Below, piece after piece: positions 18,621 to 24,674 of a stretch of 64,000 bases of DNA. A program made the translations under genes and the position numbers. The DNA is taken from contig NZ_VIRF01000078.1 in the NCBI RefSeq assembly GCF_008107685.1, positions 1 to 64,000 on the forward strand, written 5' to 3'. This stretch comes from Novosphingobium sp. BW1 (GTDB taxonomy: Bacteria > Pseudomonadota > Alphaproteobacteria > Sphingomonadales > Sphingomonadaceae). Below the pieces are notes generated by a model that had not been told where the DNA came from, did no database searches, and saw nothing but the letters and a program-made list of their open reading frames with translations. The stretch's first letter is position 1. Every line of letters begins with the position of its first letter.

Positions 18621-19880
18621 TCATACCCTCTTGCCCAGAAACTGGGCCAGCGGATCGCGCATCAGCGGGAGCAGCGCGGCCAGCGCGAAGAACGAGGTCC
18701 TGAGGAGCTGGACCAGATTGGGTGAAACGTAGGCCACCAGCACAAAGGCCGCTATGTAAGGCATCAGTTGCAGGTAGCCGCGCTCCACCAGATCGCGGAT
18801 CGATGCCCGTTCATGAAAATTGATCGTGCGACCATGCGCCAGCGCCAGGAGACGTGCTTTCTACGGATAACCTCCCAGCGCGTCCCAAGTCATGCGCGGG
18901 TGGGACTGCATTTGTTCACGGCGCGCCTTCAGCCGTTCAGGAGACACCCGGACCGGAAGGAAATAGAGACCGGTGAGGTGCTCGGCCACAGCCACGAAAA
19001 GCCGCTACAAGGCAGCCCTGAAGAGCGCGACGAAGACGCCGAGAAGCAGCACGGTCAACCAGTGGGGATGAAGCGGCAGCTGCGCCGAAGCCCTGCTGAA
19101 CAGCACTTTCTGCACGAGCGATCCCCCCGCCTCAATGGCACGGACAGGCTGGAACTGGCTGGGTAAAATCAGGTCGAGACGCCTCGCCTCCCGGACCAGA
19201 ACGTGACGGTTGGCCTGATCGGCCACCACCGGATCGGGCACACCAATGCGCGACTGCAGACGCTCGACCATGGCGGCCAGCCATCCTTGTGCCCGATGGG
19301 GCGGCAATTCACACTCCCACCCGTTGCTGTTCTCGCCGCGGTTCGTGACGCCCACCCCAAACAGCCCGCCTCCGTCCGTATCCTTCGGCCCCTCCCGCAA
19401 TGGACTTACCAACGAGCCGGGATTCTTCGACAGATCCGTGCCAAGCCCCTATGCGCCTTCCCATTGCTGACGTGTCTCAGCGCGCGTCCCATGTACCGCT
19501 CGACATTGACGCTGTAGGTCGGCGCCATAATGCACACCATGGGCATGCTTTCGACGATAGTCTGCAGAGTAAGGGTCCGCAGGAAGTAAGCCTGGCACTA
19601 ACGGGCGCAGTCCTGGGGCGTCGGGGGGGGTACGCGCCGGTTTGTCCGGGTCGCCGCGCAGGCTTTGCCAACGCACTGCCTGTATTGCCGCCATCGCCAG
19701 CACCGAAATCAGAAACAACGAAGCTTGCGCACGATCGGCATGATCGACTTGCCCGTAGAAACCCAGACTGAGGACCATCACGAACAGAGTGACACCCGCA
19801 GTCCCGTTGCGCCGCCACGCAGCCCGGACCGCGTTCCGGCGGCCGCGCTCACCGCCCAATCGTGAAGTAAGGCGTAAACT
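18621..19880 (-). pseudogene. Decayed membrane protein gene
   Basis: One minus-strand protein can be followed across several frames and stops. It has an N-terminal part with two hydrophobic segments ('GVTLFVMVLSLGFYG', 'LFLISVLAMAAIQAV'), a middle part ('VVADQANRHVLVREARRLDL'), another membrane segment ('HWLTVLLLGVFVALFRAAL'), then 'RTINFHERASIRDLVERGYL', 'YIAAFVLVAYVSPNLVQLLR' and a natural end 'FLGKRV' with TGA at 18621-18623. In-frame TAG codons occur at 19005-19007 and near 18862, and at least two frameshifts lie above 19,400. I do not recognise the family. It sits between vdh and a dead IS5 transposase. Confidence 0.65.
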
Positions 19881-19944
19881 CATAAAGCGGCTTGAGGTTT
19901 GTCGGATATGCGGATTCACAGCGCTCCAAGATTGGAGGAGTGTG

Positions 19945-20352
19945 ATGGCCCGGCGGCGCTACGAATTGACGGATCGGGAATGGGCAATCATCGAGCCCTT
20001 GCTGCCCAATAAACCGCGCGGCGTGGCTCGGATGGATGATCGCGGGGTCCTAAACGGTATCATGTGGCGCTTCCGGTCTGGTGCAACCCTGCTGGGCGAC
20101 AAGGGCTATGACAGCAACGCAATCCGCGAGGCTGCTGCCGCGCGAGATATCTGGGCCAACATTCCCAACCGTTCCAACCGCAAGCAACGCTTTAGCTTCT
20201 CGCCTTAGCTCTACAATCAGCGCAATCTGGTCGAACGCTTCTTCAACCAAATCAAGCAATTCCGGGGCATGGCAACCCGATACGACAAGGATCCCGCAAA
20301 CGACCTCGCCGCTATTAAGCTCGTCTGTGCTCGCATATGGTGCGCCAATTAA
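19945..20352 (+). mobile_element. IS5-family transposase remnant, internally deleted
   Basis: From the ATG at 19945 the frame reads 'RRYELTDREWAIIEPLLPNK', the N-terminus of IS5-group transposases, up to 'GIMWRFRSGA'. It then jumps straight to 'LLGDKGYDSNAIREAAAARD', so the central DDE-containing part is lost. A TAG at 20206-20208 interrupts it again, but the same frame continues through 'NLVERFFNQIKQFR' to the natural stop at 20350-20352. The element is dead. No terminal repeats or target duplication could be defined. Confidence 0.85.
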
Positions 20353-20474: not shown

Positions 20475-23400
20475 ATGACGCTCTCGCCCCTTCGCCTCGT
20501 GCTGCTCGTCCTTGTCGCCATGATGGCGCTGGCCGTGTGTGAGACGCCGCTCCTCGCGCAGCCCACCGAGGCCGACGCCACCCCCGCAAGCGCGCCCGAG
20601 ATGGCTCCGGCCGCCCAGCGCGCCGCACGCATCCAAGCGCTTCTCACCGGGAATCTGGACCCGGCTGTCGATGCCCACGACCTCTTCGGGGCCAGCCTCA
20701 TCGGGCAAGACACCGCACGACTGCGGTTCGTCGCGCGCATGGTCGAGGGCCGCGATTTCTACCAGCGGGCCGCGCGCGATCCGGCCGCATTGGAAGGCCT
20801 GCCTCCGCCGCAGGCGCAGCTCGCGCTTGCCGAAGCCGCCTTCCTGCGCCTCTCAGACCAGCGCCGCCGCACGCTTCTCGAGAGCCATGCGAAAGCCCAC
20901 CGCAGTTTCCGCGAGTCTGCCGAGGAAATGAGCTCGCAGGCCCAAGAGCTCAAACGCCTGAACGCTGAGCTTACCGCGCTTCATGCCTTCCTCAAGGGGG
21001 AGGCCGTGCCACCGGGCGCGCTCGACATCAACCTGCTGGATGCCGCCAGCAACGCAGGCCAGATGGCGCTCCTGCGCGACACCAAGATACCCGATGAGGA
21101 CGAACCCGCCGAAAACGCATCTCCGGCGCTGCGCATCGCCTGGCTAAAGGACCAGGTCGCGCTTGCCCGGCGTACGATCTTCCGCTTGCCTCCCGACCGT
21201 CTGGCCCAGCTTGCAGCCGCTTCCGGCATCTCCTCGCGCTCGGCGCAGGAAGTCGCCCAGGCTGATGCGCGGCTCAAGAACACGAACACCCGCCTTAGCA
21301 AGGCCGAGCAGGACGCGCGCGTTGCGGCGAGCGAGCATGAACGCCTTGTCGCCAGCGAACGCGCGCGCCTCATCAAGACCGAACAGACCCAGGCTAAATT
21401 CCGAGCCGACCTCGTGCGCGACATCGCCTCGCCCGACACCATCGGCGACAACGCTCTTGCCTGGCGCCGCCGCACCTTCGAAGCCGCCAAGGCCGGCCCG
21501 GCCGCGGCCGACGCGCTCTACCCCCGAACTCGTCGCCGAACTGACCGAGGTGCGCGGACGGTTGCAGGCCGCACTTAAGGCCTCCGAAGCGCCCTCGACG
21601 CCCGGCCTGACGCCGCCGGCCCTCGACCGCGCGCTGTCCTCCGAGGCGCCGGAGATACGCGCGCTGGATATCCACCGTGCCGCACTCGAACGCGACGCAG
21701 CGCTGCTGACCGAAGCCCACGCCCAGCGGCTGTGGCAGCAGCGCAGCGCGCTGCGCGAGGCGATGAACCTGATGAATGGCGCACGCCTCACTCTCCTGCA
21801 CGCGCTGAGCGGTTCGATGCGCAACCGGATGACCGGCTTTGGCCCGGAAGGCGTCGCGCAGGTCCGCCGTGAGGTCTTCGAGATCGTCCTCGAGCTGCGC
21901 TTCAACCTTCAGGCCTGGCGCCATACCGCCAACGATCTTCTGGCCCGCGTGGCCCGCCCCAGCCCTGCCTTCGTCCTCGCTGTGCTACGCCTCATGCTGA
22001 TCGCCATGGCGTTCGCCTGGTGGCGCAAGCGCGGCGATGCGCTCCTCGCGCGCGCGCAGATGGCGGCGGCAGTCAAGCGCCCGCGCACGATTCTGCGTTC
22101 GCTGCAGAGCGCCGCGCTCCAACACTGGTGCCAGGTGCGCGCACCGCTCGACTGGCTGCTGCTGGCCTGCGTCCTGAGGTGGCTCTGGCCCGAGGACCTT
22201 GCTCTTGCCGGACTGCGCTTCATCTGGATTGTGGCGTTCTGGTCGTTAGCGACCGTGGCTACCGTACGCCTTGTCAACGAGCTGGCGCGCGGGCGCGGAC
22301 AGGACGATCCGCGCGCGGCGCTGCGCTGGAAGTCGCTGCGCCTGATCGCTGGCAGCCTGCTGGCGATCAGCCTAATGCTCAACCTCACCCGCGCAAGCGT
22401 GGGGGAAGGCGCGATCTACAACTGGGTGGTAACAGTCGCCTGGCTGCTGGTGTCGGTGGTGGCGGTTCTGCTCGCTAAGTGGTGGCGCGCGCACATCGTC
22501 AACCTCGCCGCGGCGGACGCGGGTGACAGCGCGCTGCTGCGCTGGATCGCACGTGACCCCGGCGGCGCAACCGGCGTCACCGGGCGCATTGCGGTAGGTG
22601 TGCTGCTGCTGGCCAAGGGTGTGCGCGCGGTGGTCGCACGGCGCGTGCGCGATGTAGCGCTGGTGCGCGAGATGCTGGAGCAGCGCGCGCGCATCGCGGC
22701 CGAGCGGCAGGTCGCCAAGGACAAGGTGAGCGGACGCTTCCACCGCCTTGCCCCCGAGACCCTCGCGGTCTTCGATCCGCACCGCCCGCCGTCGACGCTG
22801 CGCCTCGGGACCGAGCGCCCGGGGCATCTGTCTATGCCTCTGATCCCTGCCGGATCACTCACCCTGTTCGTGGGCGAGCGCAGGATCGGCAAGTCCTCGT
22901 ACTTCCGCGACCTCGCCCAAAAGTCGGGCAAGGACATGCGCCACGTCCATCTTGAAGTACCTCCTTGCCCGCCCACAGACTGGGTCGCGCGCTTGCCCAA
23001 CCAGCTGGCGCAAGAGGCACGCGGCGGCGCCCCGCTCTTCATCACCATCGACGATATTCAGCGCCTCATCACCCCGGCCATCGGGGGACTTGCCACGCTC
23101 GACCGGCTGATCGGACAGGCCCGCCATTCCTGCGAGGAGGGCCATGCCTGGGTCTTCGCAATCTCGGATGCCGCCTGGCGATTTCTCCAGCGCGCGCGCA
23201 GCGAACGCATCCTCTTCGATGTCATCCACACGCTCCCCGTCTGGACCGCAGACGAACTGCGCGCCCTTATCGAGCGCCGCTCGGCGCAGGCCGGGATCGC
23301 CCCCGACTTCTCCGCCATGATCGATGACGGCGTGTTCGAGTTCGGCGAGGATGTCTCGGTCACCGAGCGGCGCAAACGCGGCTACTACGAGCGCCTCGCC

Positions 23401-23766
23401 GAACACGTAGGCGGCAACCCGGCGATCGCGCTTGACTACTGGCGCCGCTCGCTCTTCGTCGAGGCTGGCACCGGCGCGGTCAACGTGCGCACCTTCGACA
23501 CCCCGCCCACCGAAAGCCTTGCCGCCCTTCCGATGCCCGCCCTCTTCGTGCTGCGCGTGCTGCTCCAGATGGACTTTGCCGACAAGGCGACCATCCAGGC
23601 CAGCACCGACCTTTCGGACATGGAGATCAGCGACGCGCTGCGCCGCCTCGAACGCATGGGCGCGGTGACATACGTGGCGCCCGGCTACCAGATCGCGCTC
23701 AACTGGTGGACGACCATCGCCCGCCTGCTCGTGCGCCAGAACCTCATCGTGCGGGAGACACGCTGA
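20475..23766 (+). CDS. Membrane-anchored P-loop NTPase with periplasmic coiled coil; one frameshift
   Basis: Read through one frameshift this is a protein of about 1,096 residues. A signal-peptide-like start ('LVLLVLVAMMALAVC', ATG 20475) leads to about 450 residues of Ala/Arg/Glu-rich coiled coil, as in the periplasmic part of MscK-type channels. Several membrane helices follow (about residues 500-715), then a cytosolic NTPase domain with Walker A 'GERRIGKSS' (about 800) and Walker B 'LFITIDDIQ' (about 856), and a winged-helix-like C-terminus ('SDMEISDALRRLERMGAVTY'). At 21521-21525 a C5 run (TAC CCC C GA) moves the frame +1; without it the protein ends at 21578. The stop overlaps the mscS ATG. 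Lesion, assembly error or CCC-C slippage cannot be told apart. I know no named family with this full layout. Confidence 0.65.
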
Positions 23767-24674
23767 TGCCCGGCCCCTCGTTTGCCCCCGCCCTGTTCCG
23801 GCCCTTGCGGTCAGCCGCCCCGCTCCTGATTCTGGTCGCCAGCCCCGCGTGGGCCCAGGAAGATATCGACATCGACACGATCAGCCGCCTCGCCGACATC
23901 GTGCGCTGGGGCGGAGTCATCACCTCGCTCTTCGTCGTAGCCGGCGCATGGATGCTGCTGCGGCTTCTCGGACGCTTCGTCGCCGCCTTCGGAAGCGAGT
24001 TCTCCTCACGCCGCCTGACCTTCCACAAGGTCAGCACGATCGGCCAGTTTGTGATTTACGTCGCCACGACCCTGCTCGTGCTCCTGCTCTCCTTCCGGGT
24101 CGACGAAACGACGCTCGCGGTGATCGGCGGCACGGTGGCGGTGGCGGTCGGCTTTGCAATGAAGGACCTTGTCGCCTCGTTCATCGCCGGCGTCATCGTC
24201 ATGCTCGACCGGCCCTTCCAGGTCGGCGACCGTGTCAATTTCGGTGGCGAATACGGCGATATCACCGCTATTGGCCTGCGCTCGGTGCGCATGCAGACGC
24301 TGGACGACAACACCGTCACCATCCCCAACAGCAAGTTCCTGAGCGATGTGACGTCCTCGGGCAACTACGGCGCGCTCGACATGCAGGTGGTGATGGATTT
24401 CCACATCGCCGCCGACCAGGATTTCGAGCGTGCCCGCGAGATCGTGAACGAGGCCGTGCTGTCCAGCCGCTACGTCTTCCTCGCCAGGCCCGTGGTCATT
24501 CTCGTCAACCAGTGGGTGTCGGATTACCTTGTCGGCGTACGCCTGCGGCTCAAGGCCTACGTCCTCGATACGCGCTTTGAGAAGGCCTTCGAGTCCGACG
24601 TGAACCTGCGGGTCCTATGCGCTTTCCAGCACGAAGGAATCCTGACGCCCGGCCAGCCCCGCCCCGCCACCTGA
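23766..24674 (+). CDS. MscS-family mechanosensitive ion channel
   Basis: A 302-residue channel subunit. A signal peptide or first helix ('LLILVASPAWA') is followed by two membrane helices ('GGVITSLFVVAGAWMLLRLL', 'VIYVATTLLVLLLSF') and the pore helix 'IGGTVAVAVGFAMKDLVASF', the Gly/Ala-rich TM3 of MscS. The beta domain 'LDRPFQVGDRVNFGGEYGDI' and 'VTIPNSKFLSD' are canonical. It opens on membrane tension to release solutes. The ATG shares its A with the TGA of the NTPase gene, so synthesis is coupled; the NTPase protein may gate or localise the channel. That link is inference. Confidence 0.9.
   Translation: MPGPSFAPALFRPLRSAAPLLILVASPAWAQEDIDIDTISRLADIVRWGGVITSLFVVAGAWMLLRLLGRFVAAFGSEFSSRRLTFHKVSTIGQFVIYVATTLLVLLLSFRVDETTLAVIGGTVAVAVGFAMKDLVASFIAGVIVMLDRPFQVGDRVNFGGEYGDITAIGLRSVRMQTLDDNTVTIPNSKFLSDVTSSGNYGALDMQVVMDFHIAADQDFERAREIVNEAVLSSRYVFLARPVVILVNQWVSDYLVGVRLRLKAYVLDTRFEKAFESDVNLRVLCAFQHEGILTPGQPRPAT

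Follow-up and report, generated by a model that had tools for sequence, protein, structure and literature searches.

We analyzed a stretch of 64,000 nucleotides from Novosphingobium sp. BW1 (contig NZ_VIRF01000078.1, positions 1 to 64,000; hereafter the window), in which a gene for a membrane-anchored nucleoside triphosphatase (NTPase) directly precedes a gene for a channel of the MscS family. All window features described here lie on the plus strand. The first gene, termed the sensor/NTPase gene (20475..23766), starts with an ATG at 20475 and ends with a TGA at 23764-23766. Its frame is broken near 21,518-21,526: the N-terminal frame runs from the ATG to a stop at 21578, and the C-terminal part lies in a different frame that is open from about 21523 to the TGA. 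The closest homologue, from Novosphingobium profundi EaN21-2 (L031), has one intact frame of 1,096 residues from the homologous ATG, which equals the frameshift-corrected length given in the original prediction, a reading of the letters alone. The NTPase stop and the MscS start overlap in the sequence TGATG (23764..23768) and have one base in common, as had also been noted there. The second gene (23766..24674, ATG at 23766-23768) encodes an MscS-family pore subunit of 302 amino acids (P0003). An AlphaFold model of the intact homologue (16 alignment rows; mean predicted local distance difference test score, pLDDT, 82.7; predicted template modelling score, pTM, 0.47) orders the first protein as a signal helix, long helices that extend to around residue 493, then membrane helices, an alpha/beta NTPase domain and a helix-turn-helix with a beta wing. 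This matches the succession of signal sequence, helical stretch, membrane helices, P-loop NTPase and winged-helix-like end that had been read from the window.

The NTPase-MscS pair is a conserved module. To gather loci, only the NTPase was used as query. The searches covered plasmids, which gave 3 records, a species-level genome collection, which gave 17 loci, and genomes sampled from the family (397), from the class (385) and from the phylum of G839, a Deltaproteobacteria bacterium (282). A narrow first search of 61 genomes returned only the window's own copy, which could suggest an orphan gene; the wider searches demonstrate that it is not. At all 17 loci from the species-level collection, an MscS gene lies directly downstream. 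After removal of duplicate contigs (L022, L024 and L037) and of loci lacking a C-terminal NTPase frame (L083, L097, L103 and L153), 100 loci with an NTPase score of at least 100 bits were retained, including the window (L030), a remnant (L029) and a one-frame case (L142). An MscS domain occurs within 2 kb downstream on the same strand in 97 of them, and it starts at -281 to +195 bases from the NTPase stop. The nearest possible MscS start codon is found at -20 to +60 nucleotides of that stop in 92 of the 97 loci, and at exactly -4 or -1 in 37. Homologues that usually lie away from MscS genes, an outcome named beforehand as speaking against the original proposal, are not what was found. As for the exceptions, the contig breaks off about 705 bases past the NTPase in L090 and about 514 bases past it in L139, and in L126 the MscS gene is situated about 3.5 kb further on, with other genes between. 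The same test on 17 loci under 100 bits gave 11 with MscS and six without.

The linkage also holds in the reciprocal direction. The MscS subfamily (E ≤ 1e-40) is present in eight of 394 family genomes, and all eight hold the NTPase, the window copy being the frame-broken one; near full-length NTPase copies likewise number eight, counting the window's, among the 397 family genomes. Across the phylum of G839, the MscS subfamily (E ≤ 1e-40) occurs at 85 places in 78 of the 282 genomes. An NTPase match lies within 6 kb at 79 of these places, and at five more the NTPase is directly upstream (G875, 184 bits; G1087, 114; G903:C195, 175; G1120, 48; G891, 37), so that 84 of 85 adjoin an NTPase. The remaining place (G997:C201) is cut by a contig end. 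NTPase matches at E ≤ 1e-6, weak ones included, are present in 87 of the 282 genomes; 13 of these genomes have no MscS at E ≤ 1e-40, most of them with low-scoring NTPase matches. The module is patchy in sphingomonads and occurs in about 28-31% of the 282 genomes. Overall, the pair recurs in genomes of Alphaproteobacteria and of Deltaproteobacteria/Nannocystaceae. As Nannocystaceae belong to Myxococcota, the phylum represented by these loci and by G839 is probably Myxococcota. Note that a few weak matches were dropped, namely G184 (17.9 bits) among the family genomes and G581, G777 and G459 (about 23 bits, frames of 407-452 amino acids) among the class genomes. The latter three match in the P-loop region only and might be DnaA-like. 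G857 (29.5 bits, 406 amino acids) is of the same weak kind, yet it is counted among the 87.

Pairwise distances of the two proteins are correlated (r = 0.838 over 90 pairs; none of 1000 permutations was as high), which, without a species tree, demonstrates co-inheritance rather than interaction. The pore is the slower partner, with a mean p-distance of 0.523 against 0.758 for the sensor/NTPase. One could argue that both genes merely share a stress-regulon operon without functional contact. Indeed, MscS genes are common (eight Pfam matches in the source genome), and contact between the two proteins is something we infer. We nevertheless consider such a coincidence highly improbable given the near-complete two-way linkage in alphaproteobacterial and probably myxobacterial genomes, the conserved start-stop spacing, the co-divergence, and the relationship, described below, between the sensor half and the regulatory half of an MscS-type channel made as one chain. 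No paper on an MscS-NTPase pair was found, which is weak evidence of absence as preprints and most subscription journals were outside the coverage of the search.

Several loci depart from the standard arrangement. A different-subfamily MscS gene lies directly upstream of the NTPase in L025 (11244-12128, minus strand) and L036 (737-1639, plus strand), and on the Caulobacter plasmid pNIBR24541 the NTPase gene is followed by two consecutive MscS genes, the second of which (L021:7784-8839, plus strand) again belongs to a different subfamily. These second MscS genes suggest mixed or alternative pores. By eye, the partners in L153 and perhaps L148 resemble divergent MscS proteins. In L142 (1750-4239, minus strand), a single frame comprises the NTPase end and a C-terminal MscS part without membrane helices, which we take to be a deletion or assembly fault. 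Pairing is kept even in a very divergent member from an alphaproteobacterium with a 1.7 Mb genome (G472), where the MscS gene (198 bits) overlaps the NTPase gene (102 bits, Walker A GERGAGATT) by eight bases.

The broken frame in the window is best judged against L031. Identity between the window protein and this homologue is 88.9% in the first 350 residues and 91.4% in the remaining 747. Novosphingobium pentaromativorans US6-1 is another strain with an intact pair. The ratio of nonsynonymous to synonymous substitution rates (dN/dS, Nei-Gojobori) is 0.143 before the break (347 codons) and 0.145 after it (746 codons), compared to 0.09 for the MscS gene and to 0.15, 0.158 and 0.288 for three intact NTPase pairs in the family. 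Similar ratios on both sides imply that the break is recent or a sequencing fault and that the protein is under selection. Because an intact relative with 91% identity exists and dN/dS is about 0.14 on either side, the sensor/NTPase family is real and selected. A different question, which concerns this copy only and stands beside the family-level readings, is whether the window copy is a pseudogene. The frame break near 21,520 and the changed Walker A motif (GERRIGKSS against GERGLGKSS in L031, with a glycine at the fourth position in most of the family) hint that it may be newly impaired. Yet the dN/dS values resemble those of the intact pairs and the homologue is intact, which points to a sequencing or assembly error or to a very recent break, and makes a pseudogene distinctly unlikely. 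Programmed frameshifting was rejected, since intact homologues translate without it. In a Hyphomonas metagenome-assembled genome, the NTPase copy (L040:6737-10258) is spread over three reading frames, possibly due to sequencing errors.

The sensor half starts with a putative signal peptide of about 29 residues (20475..20561), in line with a helix at residues 5-21 and a hydropathy peak in the homologue; the cleavage site was placed by eye. It is followed by a predicted periplasmic, all-helical domain (20601..21952; homologue residues 43-493 approximately, from the AlphaFold secondary structure). Hydropathy over the alignment displays strong stretches near residues 506, 591, 633 and 658, besides a weaker run (567-571) and a further one (704-712). 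Combined with the model helices, this gives spans at approximately 497-520, 557-575, 582-601, 622-641 and 649-668, termed helices A to E (residues 497-668; 21964..22479), and a doubtful sixth at 700-720. The several membrane helices of the original prediction can thus be specified as five convincing ones, the sixth hydrophobic stretch probably not spanning the membrane. Lysine and arginine residues are concentrated in alternate loops (seven in A-B, five in C-D and four in E-F, versus one in B-C and none in D-E), and ten occur in the 40 residues after the doubtful stretch. Under the well-established positive-inside rule, this loop pattern favours five spans and a cytoplasmic NTPase domain.

Escherichia coli MscK is described as comprising a periplasmic domain of about 500 residues, eleven transmembrane (TM) helices and an MscS-like C-terminus, with W914, V921 and F925 as gate residues (PMC9653487). 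We compared the sensor half with an alignment of eight MscK-type proteins using hhalign, with reversed alignments and shuffles as controls and, separately, 141 single E. coli open reading frames. Residues 375-661 of the NTPase protein align to MscK 353-678 with a score of 68.6 (Prob 91), whereas the controls reach 35.5 with the reversed MscK alignment, 33.2 with the reversed query and no more than 32.3 in 30 block shuffles. The last part of the periplasmic domain is covered from about MscK residue 353 on, and helices A to E are collinear with the five hydrophobic segments that come first behind the periplasmic domain of MscK, mapping in order on TM1 to TM5 in our own count of these segments. 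When MscM was added or other query alignments were used, the score was 56-69 (Prob 76-91) versus 31-36 for reversed alignments and at most 34.9 for 40 shuffles. A larger query of 49 N-terminal rows brought no gain in score (56-64 versus 61-69). Another alignment setting, which gave Prob 95 (A5), 0.1 (A3) and 99.6 (pore positive control), was not relied on.

The predicted fold points weakly in the same direction. In a Foldseek search with a separate AlphaFold model of residues 1-767 (pLDDT 83.3, pTM 0.58), two E. coli MscK structures occupy ranks 1 and 2 of 350,542 PDB chains. With VIA-align, this model superimposes on MscK with a Z of 8.5 (264 residues, root-mean-square deviation (rmsd) 10.9) and on the second MscK structure with a Z of 7.9 (333 residues, rmsd 10.4, 291-742 on 286-760), and the next best hit (Z 7.4) is a 63-residue match of long helices. 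The Pfam models MscS_TM and MscS_porin did not match the window pieces at E ≤ 1. Each line of evidence is weak or moderate alone; combined, the profile and fold comparisons support a distant relationship of the sensor half to the MscK periplasmic domain and TM1-5. The module departs from MscK in other respects. Pore and sensor occupy two frames in the window, and across the family only L142 among the 97 loci has them in one frame, with an incomplete MscS part. Instead of eleven membrane helices, five plus a doubtful one are predicted by hydropathy in the sensor, and three are recognized by eye in the pore.

Behind the membrane helices lies an AAA+ NTPase domain (22777..23505), predicted to be cytoplasmic, with a Walker A motif (GERRIGKSS, 22873..22899), a Walker B motif (LFITIDDIQRL, 23035..23067) and a GNP motif of the GxP type (GNPAIALDYW, 23413..23442). 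A winged-helix end follows (23509..23745), for which AlphaFold predicts helices at 1020-1061 and strands at 1064-1073; Pfam helix-turn-helix matches are below the cut-off. With the whole model, Foldseek ranks archaeal Orc1/Cdc6 first (E 3.7e-6), and the NB-ARC domain of the Roq1 resistosome comes 34th (E 2e-3) in a list with many AAA proteins. VIA-align yields Z values of up to 13.2 for NSF D2 (residues 769-1010 approximately), 12.9 for Orc1/Cdc6 (757-1089) and up to 12.8 for clamp loaders, all within about one Z unit. In a Pfam scan of 16 relatives (counts from 25 of 46 families listed), AAA_22 matches all 16 at E ≤ 0.5 (best 1.1e-11), alongside weak matches to NB-ARC (two relatives, best E 1.5e-4), NACHT (four, 0.022), nSTAND_NTPase5 (two, 0.0084) and ORC-CDC6-like (two). 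The window protein itself has no AAA match over the Pfam cut-off. Its NTPase pieces have no match over cut-off in Pfam or NCBIfam and no strong one in PADLOC or PHROGs, and a PDB sequence search with one piece (P0002) returned chance-level matches only. The relatives are annotated as 'AAA family ATPase' or 'ATP-binding protein' and clearly match generic AAA models only, and the family is without a specific curated name in these four databases. The profile searches did not reveal a well-described family with another role, and the AlphaFold, Foldseek, VIA-align and Pfam results agree with the earlier suggestion that the sensor half has gained an NTPase.

Fold and both Walker motifs identify the predicted domain as AAA+ in the family. 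GxP motifs and winged helices are features of switch-type STAND NTPases. As the GxP motif is present in 106 of 113 family members spanning the NTPase domain and the winged helix in the model, we predict a domain of the Orc/STAND kind. KAP NTPases were rejected because the domain order does not fit; in those proteins, membrane helices are located inside the P-loop domain. The Walker A lysine is present in 99 of the 113 members, i.e., in 53 of 53 at 250 bits or more, 36 of 43 at 100-250 bits and 10 of 17 below 100 bits. It is mostly replaced by arginine where absent, and L054 (G472) and L047, two members without it, still adjoin MscS. Some such versions may be pseudo-NTPases.

P0003 starts with a signal-peptide-like sequence, followed by the three membrane helices and by beta and C-terminal domains. 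Its MS_channel beta domain and pore helix place it in the MscS family: Pfam reports MS_channel_2nd over the cut-off (PF00924; E 5.1e-18, 65.4 bits, cut-off 20.2), PF21088 just over it (23.3 versus 23.1) and PF21082 below it (17.2 versus 21). The Pfam matches are to MS_channel families only, with no cNMP-binding (cyclic nucleotide monophosphate) domain. The pore helix (24108..24215) carries V and F at the MscK gate positions V921 and F925, the V being found in P0003 and all six aligned family sequences and the F in P0003 and five of the six. The W914 position is occupied by V in P0003, and W occurs there in none of the seven sequences.

Gene neighbourhoods were surveyed at 14 alphaproteobacterial loci, where 101 of 150 mechanically called neighbour proteins were scanned. 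Neighbours vary by locus; MFS transporters (6) and TonB receptors (5) lead the 25 of 106 families listed. On a plasmid of Caulobacter sp. NIBR2454 (L236:151-36001), a gene for a ClpK/ClpG-like disaggregase (1601.5 bits to ClpK, below the cut-off of 1900) is found 5.5 kb away from the module, and a superoxide dismutase gene is located 0.4 kb after the second MscS gene. Genes annotated as HdeD, SLC13 permease and sodium:proton antiporter occur about 10-18 kb away, with conjugation genes between; the HdeD-annotated gene has no NCBIfam match. The region resembles a stress-tolerance island in an alphaproteobacterium. The position of the module among stress genes on this plasmid favours stress and ion homeostasis over defence.

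The original prediction offered, as an alternative, an NTPase that senses a threat and opens the pore as effector. In such a scenario, an NLR/STAND-like sensor (NLR: nucleotide-binding leucine-rich repeat) would open the MscS pore and kill or arrest the infected cell. It could draw on the weak NB-ARC, NACHT and nSTAND_NTPase5 matches and the Roq1 hit, on the patchy presence in family genomes together with plasmid copies, and on a sensor that diverges faster than the pore. However, PADLOC did not support it: two intact NTPase homologues gave no match at E ≤ 0.01, and window proteins only matches of 10.7 and 15.2 bits. Among the 101 neighbours, matches at 1e-8 came from seven PADLOC models, each to a single protein, and no defence-gene cluster was seen. 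One scan of viral contigs found no relative either, and the transporters and receptors that head the listed neighbour families also argue against it. We regard a defence function as quite improbable.

On balance, we lean towards the view that the two genes form one split MscK-type channel, in which a STAND/Orc-like nucleotide switch on the sensor biases gating. The near-complete linkage, start-stop spacing, co-divergence, MscK relationship, topology, NTPase motifs, V/F gate positions and plasmid stress genes led us to this view, and the earlier idea of a split MscK-like system with a separate pore is supported by the MscK profile match and the top fold ranks in the PDB. The small protein would form an MscS-type pore. 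The large one would be the detached MscK-type sensor, consisting of a periplasmic helical domain and membrane helices related to TM1-5, with an AAA+/STAND-like switch and winged helix at its cytoplasmic end, where MscK has its remaining membrane helices and pore. Translational coupling would ensure that both are made together, and they probably assemble with the sensor surrounding the pore like the peripheral helices of MscK. In stress or osmotic ion release, a periplasmic or membrane signal and the nucleotide state could then jointly set how easily the pore opens. We consider gating by tension plus nucleotide a good hypothesis. A more specific version, in which a STAND-type switch replaced the pore on an MscK sensor and ion release is governed jointly by tension, a periplasmic signal and ATP/ADP, is put forward only tentatively, with somewhat more doubt than belief. 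Under this version, the switch would act through binding or conformation alone in divergent lineages without the Walker A lysine.

A number of observations weigh against a split, nucleotide-biased channel. In single-sequence comparisons, MscK (29.3) and MscM (27.5) top the 141 E. coli open reading frames, with the best decoy close behind at 25.9. The two MscK structures reach Foldseek E-values of only 0.21 and 0.25, and not one PDB chain matches at E ≤ 0.001. Helical models commonly give Z values near 8, and the module offers no clear counterpart to MscK TM6-8. Of the 113 members, 14 lack the Walker A lysine (0 of 53 in the top score band, 7 of 43 in the middle one and 7 of 17 in the lowest), which makes it unlikely that ordinary hydrolysis is indispensable throughout the family. 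In the window itself, the gene has a broken frame and an altered Walker A motif. One sphingomonad (G453; L029, L230) keeps the MscS gene, 66.5% identical to P0003 at the protein level, with only about the last 80 NTPase residues; this genome is absent from the reciprocal family matches, presumably because it was not in that sample. Finally, the stress context derives from one plasmid, and other neighbourhoods are mixed.

Rather than gating the pore, the NTPase might be an assembly, quality-control or localisation factor, i.e., an AAA+ chaperone-like protein that builds or places MscS. The AAA+ fold with its best Z values to NSF D2, Orc1 and clamp loaders, the gene order with the NTPase first, the pore second and coupled starts, and the loss of the Walker A lysine in some members, which fits a structural role, all agree with this idea. 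On the other hand, a chaperone would not be expected to carry a large MscK-like part in the periplasm and membrane, and the winged helix and GxP motif belong to switch-type STAND proteins. Such a factor is unlikely, albeit the most serious competitor of the split channel.

The split channel would differ from known systems in a few respects. Like MscK (KefA) and MscM of E. coli, it would combine a large N-terminal periplasmic helical domain and extra membrane helices with an MscS-type pore with V/F gate positions, and profile similarity extends over the end of the periplasmic domain and TM1-5. Unlike in those proteins, the pore is on its own polypeptide, the sensor chain ends in a predicted AAA+ NTPase and winged helix, TM6-8 lack a clear counterpart and the W914 gate residue is absent. 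MscK needs external K+ to open. What links the module to MscS is its downstream gene product, a pore of this family with about 300 residues; E. coli MscS has L105/L109 at the gate positions, as opposed to V/F here, and in the module a partner gene is tied to the pore. With Orc1/Cdc6 and STAND proteins (NB-ARC, NACHT), the NTPase shares the AAA+ fold and winged helix, Walker A, the acidic pair of Walker B and GxP, but it is predicted to be membrane-anchored behind an MscK-like sensor and clearly matches generic AAA models only. Bacterial cyclic-nucleotide-gated (bCNG) MscS-like channels also place an MscS pore under a nucleotide-binding domain. In bCNG channels, the cNMP domain is on the same chain as the pore, in contrast to a separate AAA+ protein and an MscS protein without a cNMP domain.

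While MscK and MscS channels are known, one whose sensor carries a nucleotide switch and is encoded apart from the pore would be new. Such a natural split lends itself to direct tests, as the sensor can be removed, mutated at its Walker motifs or swapped with the pore untouched. G453 (L230) offers a natural test of whether the pore works alone. If gating is nucleotide-dependent, bacterial osmotic or stress release would be linked to the energy state of the cell, and the module would exemplify a channel acted on by a STAND-like switch. No specific curated name exists for the family in the four databases searched, although its MscS subfamily is found in 78 of the 282 genomes of the probably myxobacterial phylum. 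Directly 5' of the NTPase gene, the window contains a short open reading frame (19789-20208), which we take, by eye, to resemble an internally deleted IS5-type transposase.

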